From contig JASJXX010000012.1 in the NCBI GenBank assembly GCA_030123765.1, positions 1-41,392 of the forward strand: a stretch of DNA of 41,392 bases, given 5' to 3'. The notes under the pieces are model-generated. The model made no database searches. It was not told the origin of the DNA and saw only the letters and a list, made by a program, of their open reading frames with translations. Shown here one piece after another: positions 7,397 to 12,549 of the stretch; positions within the stretch are counted from its first letter, which is position 1; the number at the start of each line of letters is the position of its first letter. The translations under genes and the position numbers were made by a program. The DNA comes from Actinomycetota bacterium. GTDB taxonomy: Bacteria; Actinomycetota; Acidimicrobiia; Spongiisociales; UBA5794.

Positions 7397-8209
7397 ATGG
7401 CAAGAGATCTCAGGGCGACGGGACACGAGCAGGCGTGGTCGTGGCCCCTTGCTGACTGGGATCGGATGTGGAAACCCTCCCGGTGGCTGAAGAGGCCGCC
7501 ACGACCTCACAAAGCGCACCTATTCCACCTCGTCGCGATCCTCGTTCTCGCTTCGTACGCCAACATCGTTGCCAACAAGCTGCTCGACGATGCATGGCAC
7601 ATCCCGTTCAATCTCGGCGTTCTCGCCGCAGCGCTTCTGATCGCGCGACGGGCCGGAACGACGTGGACCTCCATGGGCCTCCGCAAGGACCAGGGGAGGC
7701 GAAGCATCGAGGTGGGCACCGTCGTCATCGCCGTCATCGCCGCCGCGGTGGCCCTCGGCGTCGCACTCCCCGCGACGCGCGCGCTGTTCAATGACGATCG
7801 GATCGTTTCAAACTCAGTCGGATGGGTCCTCTTCCAGGCAGTCGTACGCGTCCCCCTCGCGACAGCACTCTACGAGGAAGTTCTCTTCCGCGGGATCGTC
7901 TTCGGCATGCTCATCCGGCGCTATTCGCCTCTCGTCGCAGCTCTCATCTCCTCGACACTCTTCGGCCTCTGGCACACTCTCCCGACAATGGACACCCTCC
8001 ACATGAATCCTGCGGGGACCGTGTTTACGGAGATGATCGGGCTCGGGGGCGCCATCGCGGGTGCCATCGCAGGCACCTTCGTCGCCGGACTCGGGTTCCT
8101 GTGGATACGCCTCTACGCGAACAGCACCTTCGCTGCTGTACTCGCCCACATCGGGACGAATTCGGTCGCGATGCTCGGGTCGCTCGTCGTCGTGCACCTG
8201 CTCTCGTAG
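7397..8209 (+). CDS. CPBP family intramembrane metalloprotease
   Basis: EEVLFRGIVFGML and FGLWH motifs, multiple TM segments; ATG 7 nt after TACCTT. Confidence 0.88.
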   Translation: MARDLRATGHEQAWSWPLADWDRMWKPSRWLKRPPRPHKAHLFHLVAILVLASYANIVANKLLDDAWHIPFNLGVLAAALLIARRAGTTWTSMGLRKDQGRRSIEVGTVVIAVIAAAVALGVALPATRALFNDDRIVSNSVGWVLFQAVVRVPLATALYEEVLFRGIVFGMLIRRYSPLVAALISSTLFGLWHTLPTMDTLHMNPAGTVFTEMIGLGGAIAGAIAGTFVAGLGFLWIRLYANSTFAAVLAHIGTNSVAMLGSLVVVHLLS

Positions 8210-8210
8210 C

Positions 8211-8239
8211 TTGACATCCGCCGAAACGTCCGCGAGCAT
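8211..8239 (+). promoter_or_regulatory. Putative promoter of the ABC exporter operon
   Basis: TTGACA (8211-8216), 17-nt spacer, GAGCAT (8234-8239). Confidence 0.4.
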
Positions 8240-8286
8240 GGTCCGGTCTGGTCCCTGGGGACCGGGTTCGCTGCTGAGGAGGGTCG

Positions 8287-8349
8287 ATGATCAGGCTGAA
8301 CACGCCGAATCTGTCATCAGCGACTCTCGCGCGCGCCCGGATGCGGTAG
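8287..8349 (+). CDS. Putative 20-aa leader peptide MIRLNTPNLSSATLARARMR
   Basis: GAGGAGGG Shine-Dalgarno at 8276-8283 and ATG at 8287 in the 236-nt ABC operon leader. Confidence 0.4.
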   Translation: MIRLNTPNLSSATLARARMR

Positions 8350-8445
8350 CTACAGCCCCTCCCCCGCTCTCGAGACCCGCCCTCATGTGACGGCTCCGCT
8401 GTTCATGAACCCTGTCTCACCTCTCCGATCCTTCAAGGACTACCC

Positions 8446-10197
8446 ATGATCCCCGTACGCGCATACTTCAGGCTCTTCTCCGGATACCTCCGGCCGCATC
8501 GTCCCAAGGCGATGTTGCTCGGTGTGATTCTCTCCGTCTCGATCGCGTTGCAGCTCGTGAACCCACAGCTGATCAAACGCTTCATCGATCAGGCGATGGC
8601 GGGATCTGCTGCATCGAGCCTGACACCGATCGCGATCATGTTCATGGTCGTTGCCGTGAGTCACCAGCTTCTGGCGGTGTGGTCGACGTATCTCGCCGAG
8701 CAGGTCGGATGGTCGGCAACCAACCAGCTCAGAGCTGACCTCACCGATCACGTCCTCTACCTCGACATGGGCTTCCACAAGAGCACGAGTCCTGGAGAGC
8801 TGATCGAGCGGATCGACGGCGATGTCACTGCGCTCTCGAACTTCTTCTCTTCGATGATCATCAAGGTGCTCGGAAACGCGGCCCTGATCGCCGGAGTGCT
8901 GATCATGCTCTGGCGGGAGTCATGGATGGTCGGGCTCACAATCACCGTGCTCACCGCCGGTACCTTCGCAGGCCTGTTCCGTCTCCACGGTGTCACGGTT
9001 CCGTGGCAGAAGGCGATCCGGGCGACAAGCGCTGAGATGTACGGGTTCATCGGCGAGCAGATCGACGGCACTGAAGACATCAAAGCGAGCGGAGCGATCC
9101 AATTCATGCTGTCACGATTCGATTCCATCCAACGCAAGTGGCTGCCTCAGGTCATTCGTGGATGGACGGGTTGGGCGATGATGTGGAGCGCGTCGATGGC
9201 CCTCTACTTCGCGTCGCTCGCTGCTGCGTTCGTGTTCGGATACTGGCTGTTCGGCATCGGCGCCCTCACACTCGGATCCGTGTTTCTCGTCTTCCGATAC
9301 GTCGAGATGGCACACCACCCGATCGAGCAGATCAGGGAACAGCTCATTGACCTTCAGAAGGCCGGGGCGTCGATCGAGCGGGTTGAACGGCTTCTCGCAA
9401 GGGAGTCTGCTCTCATCCAGGGCGGCGACCAACTCCTGCCCGATGGCCCGCTGCATCTGCGGTTTGAGAACGTGACATTCCGATACGATGACGAAGCGGG
9501 AGACAACGTCGTACTCGAAGCCGTCTCGTTCGATATCCAACCCGGCCGGGTAGTCGGGCTGCTGGGGCGCACGGGCTCAGGCAAGTCGACGATCGCCCGC
9601 CTCGTCACCCGCATGTACGAGCCTCAGGAGGGGGCCGTTCAGATCGGTGGCGTCGAGACGCGGAAGATCGAGATCACCGAACTGCGTCGCCGCGTCGCGA
9701 TGGTCACCCAGGACGTACAGCTATTCCGTGCCACGGTACGCGACAATCTCACCTTCTTCGACGAATCGATCAGCGACGACAGCCTGCTCGGCGTCATCCA
9801 CCAGCTTGAACTCGACGAGTGGCTGGCGTCGCTGCCCGCCGGTCTCGACTCCATGCTCGCCTCGGGAAGCGGAGGCCTCTCCGCCGGGCAAGCCCAACTG
9901 CTCGCCTTCACGAGGGTGTTTCTCAGGAACCCCGGCGTCGTCGTTCTCGATGAAGCATCATCACGCCTTGACCCGGCGACGGAGGTCCTCCTCGAACGTG
10001 CAGTGGGGAACTTGCTTGAGAACCGAACCGCGATCCTCATCGCCCACAGGCTCGAAACCGTGGCACGAGCTGATGACATCGTCATCCTCGAGAACGGTCG
10101 CGTCGTCGAACAGGGGGAGCGCGAGCTGCTGCAAGCCGATCCGAAATCGCTCTTCTCGCGTCTGCTCGCGACAGGGATGGAGGAGGCCCTCGTATGA
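8446..10197 (+). CDS. ABC transporter ATP-binding/permease protein (exporter half 1)
   Basis: TM domain; Walker A GRTGSGKST; Walker B VVVLDEASS; signature LSAGQ; H-loop AHR. Confidence 0.93.
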   Translation: MIPVRAYFRLFSGYLRPHRPKAMLLGVILSVSIALQLVNPQLIKRFIDQAMAGSAASSLTPIAIMFMVVAVSHQLLAVWSTYLAEQVGWSATNQLRADLTDHVLYLDMGFHKSTSPGELIERIDGDVTALSNFFSSMIIKVLGNAALIAGVLIMLWRESWMVGLTITVLTAGTFAGLFRLHGVTVPWQKAIRATSAEMYGFIGEQIDGTEDIKASGAIQFMLSRFDSIQRKWLPQVIRGWTGWAMMWSASMALYFASLAAAFVFGYWLFGIGALTLGSVFLVFRYVEMAHHPIEQIREQLIDLQKAGASIERVERLLARESALIQGGDQLLPDGPLHLRFENVTFRYDDEAGDNVVLEAVSFDIQPGRVVGLLGRTGSGKSTIARLVTRMYEPQEGAVQIGGVETRKIEITELRRRVAMVTQDVQLFRATVRDNLTFFDESISDDSLLGVIHQLELDEWLASLPAGLDSMLASGSGGLSAGQAQLLAFTRVFLRNPGVVVLDEASSRLDPATEVLLERAVGNLLENRTAILIAHRLETVARADDIVILENGRVVEQGERELLQADPKSLFSRLLATGMEEALV

Positions 10198-11990
10198 GCC
10201 GCCAACCCACACCCGCATTCACCCGCGTTCTCTTCAGGATGATCCGCCAACAGCCGATCCGATACGCCTTCGCTCTCTTCCTCTGGGTGACCATCTGGAC
10301 CATGCCGATCCTCATCGGACTCATCTCAGCGAGATACTTCGACGCGCTCGTCGACGGAATGGAGGTCACGACCCTGACCCTCCTCATCACGGCAGTGCTC
10401 GCCTACGCGTTCATCCGATCAGCCTTCATCTTCCTTGGAATGCGGAACCACGCGTCGCTGCTCTTTCGCACGGCCGCAACGATGCGACGGAACCTCCTTG
10501 TCCGCATCTTCGAACTCCCCGGCGCTGCAGGTCTTGAGGCGACCCCCGGCGAAGCGGTGAGCAGGTTCCGCGACGACGTCGAGCATGTGATCGAACCGTT
10601 CGACCTGTTCGTCGACTTCATCGGGGCTCTCGTCTCCGGGCTCATCGCATTCGGGATCCTCTGGACGATCGACCCCGTCATCACCGCCGTGATCGCCCTT
10701 CCGGTGACGATCGTCGCGATCGTCTCGAACCGCACAGGCGGGCTCCTGCGAAGGTACCGGCGCCAGGCGCGCGACGCGACCGAGGCGATCACAGGCTTCC
10801 TCGGAGAGACGTTCTCCGCTACGCAGTCGGTCAAGGTTGCCGGCGCCGAACCGCACATGCTCCGTCGCCTCACGCAGCTCAACGAGGTACGCAGGACAAT
10901 GATGGTGCGGGACCGGACACTCACCGCAGTGCTCGAGGCTGTCTTTCGCAATACGGTGAACATCGGCACCGGCCTGATTCTGCTGCTCGCAGCCGGGCGG
11001 CTCACGGCGACGGGTGACGCGGGAATCTCACTCGGCGAGTTCGCTCTCTTCGTGTTCCTCCTCACCCAGGTCACCGATTCCGCCTACTTCTACGGCCTCT
11101 ACATGGCCCGAGCCAAGCAGGGCAGCGTGAGCGTTGAACGCCTTGCTGCCACGCTGTCGGGTGAACCGTGGCAGCGGCTGATGGAGGACACCAAACTCGG
11201 ACTCGACGACGATGTGTCGGAGAGCGCCATGACGTCTGCTGCACCGGATCCGTTCGTGTCTCTCTCGGTGCGCGATCTGACGTATCGCTACCGCGATTCG
11301 ACCAACGGCATCGACGGTGTAGACCTCGACATAGCCCGCGGGGAGTTCGTTGTCATCACCGGCCGCATCGGATCGGGGAAGACGACGCTCCTGCGCACGA
11401 TCCTCGGGCTCCTCCCCGCCGAGAGAGGCACCGTGCTCTGGAACGGCGAAATCGTCGAAGATCCCTCGACGTATCTCACCCCTCCCCGGGCGGCATACAC
11501 AGCTCAGGTGCCCCGCCTGTTCTCCATGTCGCTTGAAGAGAATCTCGTTCTCGGTGCTGTACTCGAGAGTGGTCGGCTCGACGAGTCGATCCACATCGCC
11601 ACGATGCGTCACGACATCGACATGATGCCTGAGGGACTTCAGACCCGGATCGGCCCTCGGGGGGTGCGTCTCTCCGGCGGCCAGGTGCAGCGCTCCGCTG
11701 CAGCCCGGATGTTCGCGAGGTCGCCGCAGCTCATCGTCCTGGACGACGTGTCCTCCGCCCTGGACGTCGAGACCGAGCAGATGCTCTGGGAGCGCCTCTT
11801 CGAGGCCCGCAGGGACGTCGCCGTCCTCGTCGTCTCGCACCGCCACGCCGCGCTCGCGCAAGCAGACCGCGTGATCGTGATGGATGCGGGACGCGTGGTC
11901 GCCGTAGGAGCGGCGAGTGAACTCAACGAGTCGTCAGAGGCGTTCCGGGCGATCTGGGATGGATCGCCTGGTGCTCCTAACCCCTCGTGA
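10194..11990 (+). CDS. ABC transporter ATP-binding/permease protein (exporter half 2)
   Basis: TM domain; Walker A GRIGSGKTT; Walker B LIVLDDVSS; signature LSGGQ; ATGA overlap with half 1. Confidence 0.93.
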   Translation: MSRQPTPAFTRVLFRMIRQQPIRYAFALFLWVTIWTMPILIGLISARYFDALVDGMEVTTLTLLITAVLAYAFIRSAFIFLGMRNHASLLFRTAATMRRNLLVRIFELPGAAGLEATPGEAVSRFRDDVEHVIEPFDLFVDFIGALVSGLIAFGILWTIDPVITAVIALPVTIVAIVSNRTGGLLRRYRRQARDATEAITGFLGETFSATQSVKVAGAEPHMLRRLTQLNEVRRTMMVRDRTLTAVLEAVFRNTVNIGTGLILLLAAGRLTATGDAGISLGEFALFVFLLTQVTDSAYFYGLYMARAKQGSVSVERLAATLSGEPWQRLMEDTKLGLDDDVSESAMTSAAPDPFVSLSVRDLTYRYRDSTNGIDGVDLDIARGEFVVITGRIGSGKTTLLRTILGLLPAERGTVLWNGEIVEDPSTYLTPPRAAYTAQVPRLFSMSLEENLVLGAVLESGRLDESIHIATMRHDIDMMPEGLQTRIGPRGVRLSGGQVQRSAAARMFARSPQLIVLDDVSSALDVETEQMLWERLFEARRDVAVLVVSHRHAALAQADRVIVMDAGRVVAVGAASELNESSEAFRAIWDGSPGAPNPS

Positions 11991-12549
11991 TCGCGAGGAT
12001 CTCGATCTCGAAAGTGAGCGCCTCTCCGGCGAGCAAGTGATTGGTGTCGAGGGTGACCGTGGCTTCGGTCACCTTGAGCACGACGGCTGACTGCCCGCTC
12101 GTGAGAAAGACGGTCTCGCCGACCTCGACATCACCCTGCTCAGGATTGAAAGGAACCTCGACGACGTTCGCTTCGCTCCACTCTCCGTATGCGTTCGCCG
12201 GTTCGATGCGCACCGTTCGCACGTCTCCAACCTTCCCTCCGCGAACACCCTCGTCGAATCCCGAGATCACCTGTCCGGTGCCAACCGTGAAGGAGAACGG
12301 GATGTCGCGTTCGCGTGACGAATCGAACTGGGATCCGTCGTCGAGTGTGCCCACGTAATGAACTTCGACGACATCGCCGTCCTGGACGATGAAGCCTTCG
12401 TCCGGCACGGCAGGTGTCGGTCCTTCAGTCGTCTCAGTAACCCCGGCGCTCGTCGTCGTTGTGCTAGCCGCCGTCTCCTCATCCGCGCTGGTGGCGCACG
12501 AGGAGACAACGATTGCGATCGAGAGGGCGACGAGAAGGCGAGGACGCAT
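11977..12549 (-). CDS. FKBP-type peptidyl-prolyl isomerase lipoprotein, SlyD-like
   Basis: Lipobox VSSC; VHYVGTLDDGSQFDSS; TLDTNHLLAGEALTFEIEI resembles SlyD C-terminal motif. Confidence 0.82.
   Translation of the reverse strand: MRPRLLVALSIAIVVSSCATSADEETAASTTTTSAGVTETTEGPTPAVPDEGFIVQDGDVVEVHYVGTLDDGSQFDSSRERDIPFSFTVGTGQVISGFDEGVRGGKVGDVRTVRIEPANAYGEWSEANVVEVPFNPEQGDVEVGETVFLTSGQSAVVLKVTEATVTLDTNHLLAGEALTFEIEILAITRG

Follow-up and report, generated by a model that had tools for sequence, protein, structure and literature searches.

A short upstream ORF as the probable attenuator of a drug-type heterodimeric ABC exporter in Acidimicrobiia

We analyzed a 41,392-nucleotide stretch of DNA from an uncultured Actinomycetota bacterium of the class Acidimicrobiia (hereafter the window), together with the sequences upstream of orthologous exporter starts, and conclude that the leader of a drug-type ABC exporter in this window is very likely an unannotated attenuator, a known kind of switch, operated by a short upstream open reading frame (uORF). 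We place the probability that the region is a uORF attenuator at about 0.85. An earlier note on this DNA had proposed that translation of a leader ORF attenuates the exporter in cis, and the comparison among relatives supports this: the ORF and its Shine-Dalgarno sequence (SD) are kept in most orthologous leaders, the ORF stops at a homologous place within the window's clade, and terminators are found in sister clades and in other phyla. In the direction and mechanism set out below, in which brisk translation of the uORF would switch the exporter off, our confidence is more moderate, though we still consider them probable.

The two exporter genes lie on the forward strand. Subunit 1 (8446-10197) carries ABC_membrane (PF00664) and ABC_tran (PF00005) domains with the catalytic Walker B glutamate present (VVVLDEASS), while subunit 2 (10194-11990) carries ABC_membrane and ABC_tran domains with a degenerate Walker B in which D replaces E (IVLDDVSS). 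By these sequence signatures the pair is classed as a heterodimeric, drug-type ABC exporter with one degenerate ATP site, and the two subunits are probably translated together, because their genes overlap by 4 bases. Among solved single subunits, the best relative of subunit 1 is TM_0288, from the TM287/288 heterodimer, and not BmrCD. Directly upstream, on the same strand, is a gene for a CPBP/Rce1-type membrane protease (PF02517; 7400-8209), which also adjoins the exporter in the closest clades; downstream of the exporter, an ORF on the reverse strand (11977-12549) encodes what by eye is a lipoprotein-like protein with an FKBP-type peptidyl-prolyl isomerase domain.

All elements of the leader are on the forward strand, and the coordinates that the earlier note had given for the promoter, hairpin, SD, ORF, pairing segments, palindrome and exporter SD proved correct throughout. 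The probable promoter, TTGACA-N17-GAGCAT (8211-8239; TTGACA at 8211-8216, a 17-nt spacer, GAGCAT at 8234-8239), gives a predicted, probable transcript start at ~8247. As a promoter this element stands only in part: TTGACA-N17-xxxxAT is repeated at the homologous place in most close relatives, but a promoter scan of the leader passed no consensus promoter, because the -10 hexamer is poor. A 5' hairpin, P1 (GGTCC-CTGG-GGACC, 8250-8263), is followed by the uORF SD GAGGAGGG (8276-8283), which also serves as segment 1, able to pair with segment A, and by the uORF itself, MIRLNTPNLSSATLARARMR (8287-8349), with 20 codons, a TAG stop and an Arg codon AGG at codon 3 (8293-8295). Segment A, the proposed antiterminator strand, spans uORF codons 12-18 (GCGACTCTCGCGCGCGCCC, 8320-8338).

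The stop of the uORF and the exporter ATG (8446) are 96 nt apart, and most of this interval is a C-rich, G-poor tract (8350-8434; 40 C, 14 G) resembling a Rho-loading segment. Within it lie segment B (CCGCTCTCGAGACC, 8364-8377), a potential partner of A or of C; the segment GACCCGCCCTCA (8374-8385); a central hairpin, TCATG.GACGGC-TCC-GCTGTT.CATGA (8383-8408), present in the minimum-energy structure, variable in sequence among relatives and overlapping the palindrome GTTCATGAAC (8401-8410); and segment C, GTCTC (8414-8418), which could pair instead with GAGAC (8372-8376) of B. The exporter SD, AAGGA (8435-8439), is contained in TCCTTCAAGGA (8429-8439). The folding stability of the whole leader is not above chance (z = -0.11), and overall thermodynamic stability was accordingly rejected as evidence. 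Scans against Rfam 15 gave no match above the gathering score, either in the window or in 16 related loci.

Comparison with relatives supports the uORF as a genuine, conserved feature. Searching with the DNA recovered the leader from congeners and from further genera, and at the protein level the exporter was present in 43 of the 50 genomes of the family and 73 of the 138 genomes of the order. Ahead of the orthologous exporter gene, most relatives examined carry a uORF of 7-21 codons with its own SD, that is, the conserved short uORF that characterizes whiB7/wblC-type leaders. Such ORFs with an SD energy of -9 kcal/mol or lower occur in 34 of 60 orthologous leaders, compared with a mean of 0.7 and a maximum of 3 in dinucleotide shuffles; the SD of the window's uORF reaches -12.0 kcal/mol, and this uORF with its SD was equalled in none of 100 dinucleotide shuffles of its leader. 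All ten leaders of the window's clade have a uORF of 20-21 codons, with three different stops (TAG, TAA or TGA) used at the homologous place. Alignment across relatives, which the earlier note had suggested as a check, thus finds both the ORF and its stop kept within this clade. A congener (L004) has lost the leader and kept the exporter, and no such uORF with SD was seen in two loci of family f4 or in L062.

RNAalifold found little in whole-leader alignments of the window's clade and of family f8 because the 3' parts of the leaders are unalignable, so we instead compared duplex energies of segments from the same species (native) with those of segments combined across species, placing the segments at fixed offsets from the uORF start, the uORF stop and the exporter start. 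Segments A and B (uORF nucleotide 31 to the stop, against 45 nt past the stop) gave -24.1 in native versus -20.4 in cross-species combinations (p = 5e-5), and their sub-segments were likewise separated (p = 0.0024). Native pairing also stood out for B with C (non-overlapping intervals of +10 to +30 past the stop and -40 to -15 before the exporter; p < 5e-5) and for the uORF SD region (-20 to 0) with uORF nucleotides 31-51 (p = 0.0018), while most other segment combinations, used as controls, showed nothing. Across relatives, native pairing is favored for A:B, B:C and SD:A, with A:B and B:C covarying, but conservation is not supported for the pairing of GACCCGCCCTCA with the uORF SD that the earlier note had singled out: between the SD region and the post-stop segment, native and cross-species combinations did not differ (p = 0.32).

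The A:B helix has the consensus UCUCG.G.GCG / CGC.C.CGAGA, with 11 pairs and 82% of cells paired. Changes on both sides affect two pairs, both in L009 and in a register chosen by the analyst; the covariation score, on ten sequences, was reached by 7 of 500 shuffles, with slid registers giving similar scores. Folding models of an early-stalled ribosome predict A:B pairing for only some of the species. From these patterns, with clade-level tests resting on about ten sequences, we have moderate confidence that the segments form the classical 1:2 / 2:3 / 3:4 layout, and an equally moderate confidence, given the few sequences, that it includes a mutually exclusive antiterminator helix in which the uORF takes part. 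Covariation of the P1 hairpin is suggestive only, because the strong result, both-side changes in 6 of 7 pairs, is limited to arms picked by eye (a biased choice), and unbiased tests were weak (cross-species p about 0.3; mean z about -1).

What such a helix might control is clearest in sister clades. In the sister genus g6 (L012, L024-L029), and in g19 (L030), a U-run terminator, GCCGCCCACCGGGCGGC-TTTTT or a near variant of it, stands between the uORF and the exporter. By inspection, the 5' arm of this terminator (GCGAGacGGCCGCC) has a possible pairing partner in uORF codons 11-16 of g6 (GGCGGCCCUCGC in L012), with a C-G pair in L012 that is U-A in L024. When the position of the ribosome was modelled by masking its footprint during folding, a ribosome at initiation raised the predicted antiterminator pairing in g6 from 2.4 to 8.0 pairs and lowered terminator pairing from 8.9 to 5.0, and with a ribosome at codon 17 the predicted antiterminator pairing was zero and the terminator formed. 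By homology to g6, A:B of the window may be taken as the antitermination state, in which case a ribosome sitting on the R-X-R codons would turn the exporter off, and an absent, slow or early-stalled ribosome would turn it on.

A different arrangement is seen in genus f1g10 (L041, L043, L045-L047, L049), where the 3' half of the uORF is itself a hairpin (GCCGCGAG..CTCGCGGC and variants), a second strong hairpin lies past the stop (mean z -1.95), and the leaders are unusually stable (mean z -2.9). We make no claim of covariation for the post-stop hairpin because it shows no both-side changes in the MAFFT register, though most sequences form a strong hairpin.

The C-terminus of the window's peptide, R-A-R-M-R, had been interpreted in the earlier note as a macrolide-dependent arrest sequence. 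Under this interpretation a macrolide- or ketolide-bound ribosome would stall at the C-terminal motif and thereby turn the exporter on, in keeping with R-X-R being an established arrest motif in ErmDL (PMC8298421) and with the recurrence of LARAR in genera g1, g4, g6, g8 and g13 and of FARAR in g19. The block is conserved, however, at the level of nucleotides and not of amino acids: in a column-shuffle test of the aligned uORFs (17 sequences), the N-terminal codons carry an amino-acid signature (p = 0.0015), the C-terminal LARAR block shows no amino-acid-level conservation (p = 0.43), and its third codon positions are nearly invariant. The 13-mer CTCGCGCGCGCCC within segment A is found nowhere else in the 2.2-Mb genome. 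Any +X+ motif is present in only 23 of 57 uORFs and in none from 16 of 28 genera, and the close relatives L003, L006 and L010 retain the uORF without a C-terminal R-X-R. Because the block is conserved as nucleotides and +X+ is missing in most genera, the R-X-R of the window's uORF is best read as a by-product of the RNA sequence, one strand of the covarying A:B helix. The geometry of the switch also argues against arrest there, since a ribosome at codons 16-20 (the ErmDL stall comes earlier, at codon 7) masks A, reduces the predicted A:B pairing to zero and, in g6, lets the terminator form, so that a stall at this place would favor termination. On these two grounds, level of conservation and switch geometry, macrolide arrest at R-A-R-M-R was rejected as the mechanism, and we regard it as improbable.

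The most recurrent peptide residue is instead Arg at position 3, found in 17 of 28 genera (genus-weighted 51%, compared with 0-18% at neighboring positions; 57 uORFs). Of 33 such codons, 31 are AGG or CGG and none is CGC or CGT, while the other Arg codons of the same peptides are mostly CGC, CGT or CGG. An amino-acid attenuator sensing arginine through codons 3, 16, 18 and 20 would fit the frequency of Arg and the AGG or CGG at codon 3 of many leaders, but no amino-acid gene lies downstream, some leaders are without any Arg (MIFNPAGH, MMKLPKA), and the RNA block accounts for the Arg codons at the C-terminus, making this reading very unlikely. Least credible of all is the alternative, raised in the earlier note as a small exported peptide, that the pump's cargo is a secreted or signalling peptide encoded by the uORF: the small ORF does adjoin both the exporter and the CPBP protease, but the peptides are short and unrelated between clades, their C-termini are dictated by RNA pairing, and in g6, Chloroflexota and Truepera a terminator separates the uORF from the exporter.

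In L039 and L040 (genus f1g15) the uORF has eight codons (MIFNPAGH), and CTCGCGCGCGACC, which resembles the window's conserved block in sequence, sits 3' of the stop in a hairpin loop. In family f8 (L053-L065) the uORFs are only 9-11 codons long and nearly all end in Arg-stop (MFRNPTTAR, MFRTPITAR, MLMVQSRNR).

In the window itself no U-run terminator lies between uORF and exporter (none in 8150-8500). Of all 85-nt segments of the window, on either strand, 8350-8434 has the greatest excess of C over G (0.03% of segments of this size, all overlapping it); the C-over-G trend is weaker yet present in most of the window's clade and missing in clades with intrinsic terminators, and Rho is encoded in the genome. 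Because an extreme C-over-G tract takes the place of a U-run terminator, the likeliest output in the window would be Rho-dependent termination, from which the A:B helix would shield some of the C-rich RNA. A simpler scheme, in which termination is purely Rho-based and the uORF merely sets how much ribosome-free C-rich RNA is seen by Rho, with the helices minor, draws on the same tract, which most of the clade has and the intrinsic-terminator clades do not, and on the same Rho gene; we think it unlikely, as it leaves unexplained the covariation of A:B and B:C and the nearly invariant third positions of LARAR.

Control could alternatively be exerted on translation, with alternative folds masking or freeing the exporter SD and start codon. 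Family f7 of the same order looks built in this way: its nine-codon uORFs (MTRPALTTA, MTRSAPNPA, MRELRAATA and others; L066, L068-L070, L072) are followed by two competing helices, in which CACGAG..GGUUCC pairs with the exporter SD and GUG start (GGAACC..CUCGUG) in competition with a post-stop hairpin; among 120 combinations in the cross-species test, either helix takes rank 2. The f7 output thus looks translational, and sequestration of SD and start may explain the retained GTG start. In the window's clade, by contrast, the predicted accessibility of the exporter SD stays at 0.33-0.37 at every ribosome position tested on the uORF, and with no accessibility change predicted, sequestration of the exporter SD was rejected for this clade; translational attenuation of the window's exporter is accordingly doubtful.

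We therefore favor conditional termination governed by A:B, starting from what can be read directly in the sequences, namely a conserved uORF with its SD, covariation of A:B and B:C, and the arrangement of antiterminator and terminator in the sister clade. RNA polymerase would make a leader of about 200 nt, and a ribosome would load at 8276-8283 and read the 20-codon uORF. Under brisk translation, ribosomes nearing the stop would cover codons 12-18 (segment A), leaving B free of A and the C-rich RNA past the stop exposed, and transcription, presumably through Rho, would end before the exporter. If ribosomes are blocked or slow, or stall within the first part of the uORF, A would be bare and could pair with B, and A:B would hide part of the C-rich tract, preventing termination and allowing the pump to be made. 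On this scheme the pump would respond to inhibition of translation generally, perhaps with some tuning by the N-terminal M-x-R, rather than to a stall at the C-terminal R-X-R.

The same exporter is found with a uORF well beyond the order. Leaders with uORFs of roughly 20-34 codons occur in Nitriliruptorales (L115), in the cultured relative Salsipaludibacter albus AS10 (L116; uORF MKTRRPIAAPVFGARPRAVV) in Truepera (L120, L143, L145), in a Candidatus Acetothermia assembly (L138) and in many Anaerolineales or other Chloroflexota (L123, L133, L142, L144, L150, L152-L154, L157-L161). The peptides of Anaerolineales often end in RSAPVDR, a C-terminus that most of these Chloroflexota leaders have in this or a variant form, and those of Truepera often end in RSAC or RSAL. 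Both Chloroflexota and Truepera (Deinococcota) have a U-run terminator past the uORF, ahead of the exporter; an example from Chloroflexota, AGCCACGGUGCAC..GUGCACCGUGGCU-UUUUU, lies directly 3' of the leader ORF. The cross-species test for an antiterminator in Chloroflexota was weak (p = 0.04 with 13 sequences and 0.10 with Truepera added, the terminator being mislocated in three loci). Some Chloroflexota leaders may be better bench models.

We tentatively suggest, as a possibility rather than an expectation, that the TM287/288-like exporter lineage is under uORF control in at least three phyla (Actinomycetota, Chloroflexota, Deinococcota), with the 3' half of the uORF serving as the switch strand and the output device swapped among an intrinsic terminator (g6, Chloroflexota, Truepera), SD and start sequestration (f7) and a C-rich, Rho-type tract (the window's clade). 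Together these leaders suggest that, throughout an exporter lineage of environmental phyla that have received little study, uORF control is the norm. Paper searches found no description of such leaders for these lineages, and none of leader peptides in Acidimicrobiia; the leaders probably escaped notice because ORFs this short are not annotated and Rfam has no family for them. If one sensor has naturally been joined to different output devices, the evolution of attenuators can be tested directly. The case of LARAR cautions that what looks like an Arg-rich 'arrest motif' in a short leader ORF can arise as a side effect of RNA pairing.

Several known systems share parts of this design. The whiB7/wblC leaders are likewise actinobacterial and place a short uORF ahead of a resistance determinant, and there complete translation of the uORF favors termination while inhibition of translation favors the antiterminator (PMC11550727). 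They differ in that their target is a transcription factor and their terminator intrinsic, whereas here the exporter itself is the target and the peptides and RNA are others; the window's clade is without a U-run terminator, such terminators being present in g6, g19, Chloroflexota and Truepera. In ermDL and ermCL, a short uORF with Arg-X-Arg also precedes a resistance gene, and the R-X-R arrest motif of ErmDL, through an early stall at codon 7, frees expression of the downstream gene (PMC8298421). In the window, R-X-R instead lies near the stop, is not conserved as peptide and falls on an RNA strand that would need to stay bare; unmasking of the downstream SD by a stalled ribosome, as in those leaders, is not predicted (predicted accessibility 0.33-0.37).

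Closest in its target is bmrB-bmrCD of Bacillus subtilis, reported as the first case of leader-peptide control of a multidrug ABC exporter, in which translation of the leader is required, a terminator/antiterminator switch operates, and lincomycin, erythromycin and chloramphenicol act as inducers (PMC4191407). There, as here, a leader peptide precedes a heterodimeric exporter of multidrug type with one degenerate ATP site. The bmrB terminator lies inside the leader ORF, whereas the window's switch lies part inside and part behind the 20-codon ORF, and no intrinsic terminator of the bmrB type, within the leader coding region, was found in 8150-8500. Finally, the toiL uORF of Escherichia coli topAI-yjhQP senses several classes of ribosome inhibitors, with Rho-dependent termination as part of its output (PMC12121999). 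Its primary effect is to unmask the downstream ribosome-binding site, which is not predicted in the window's clade, but its combination of sensing through one uORF with Rho-dependent output resembles what we propose for the window.
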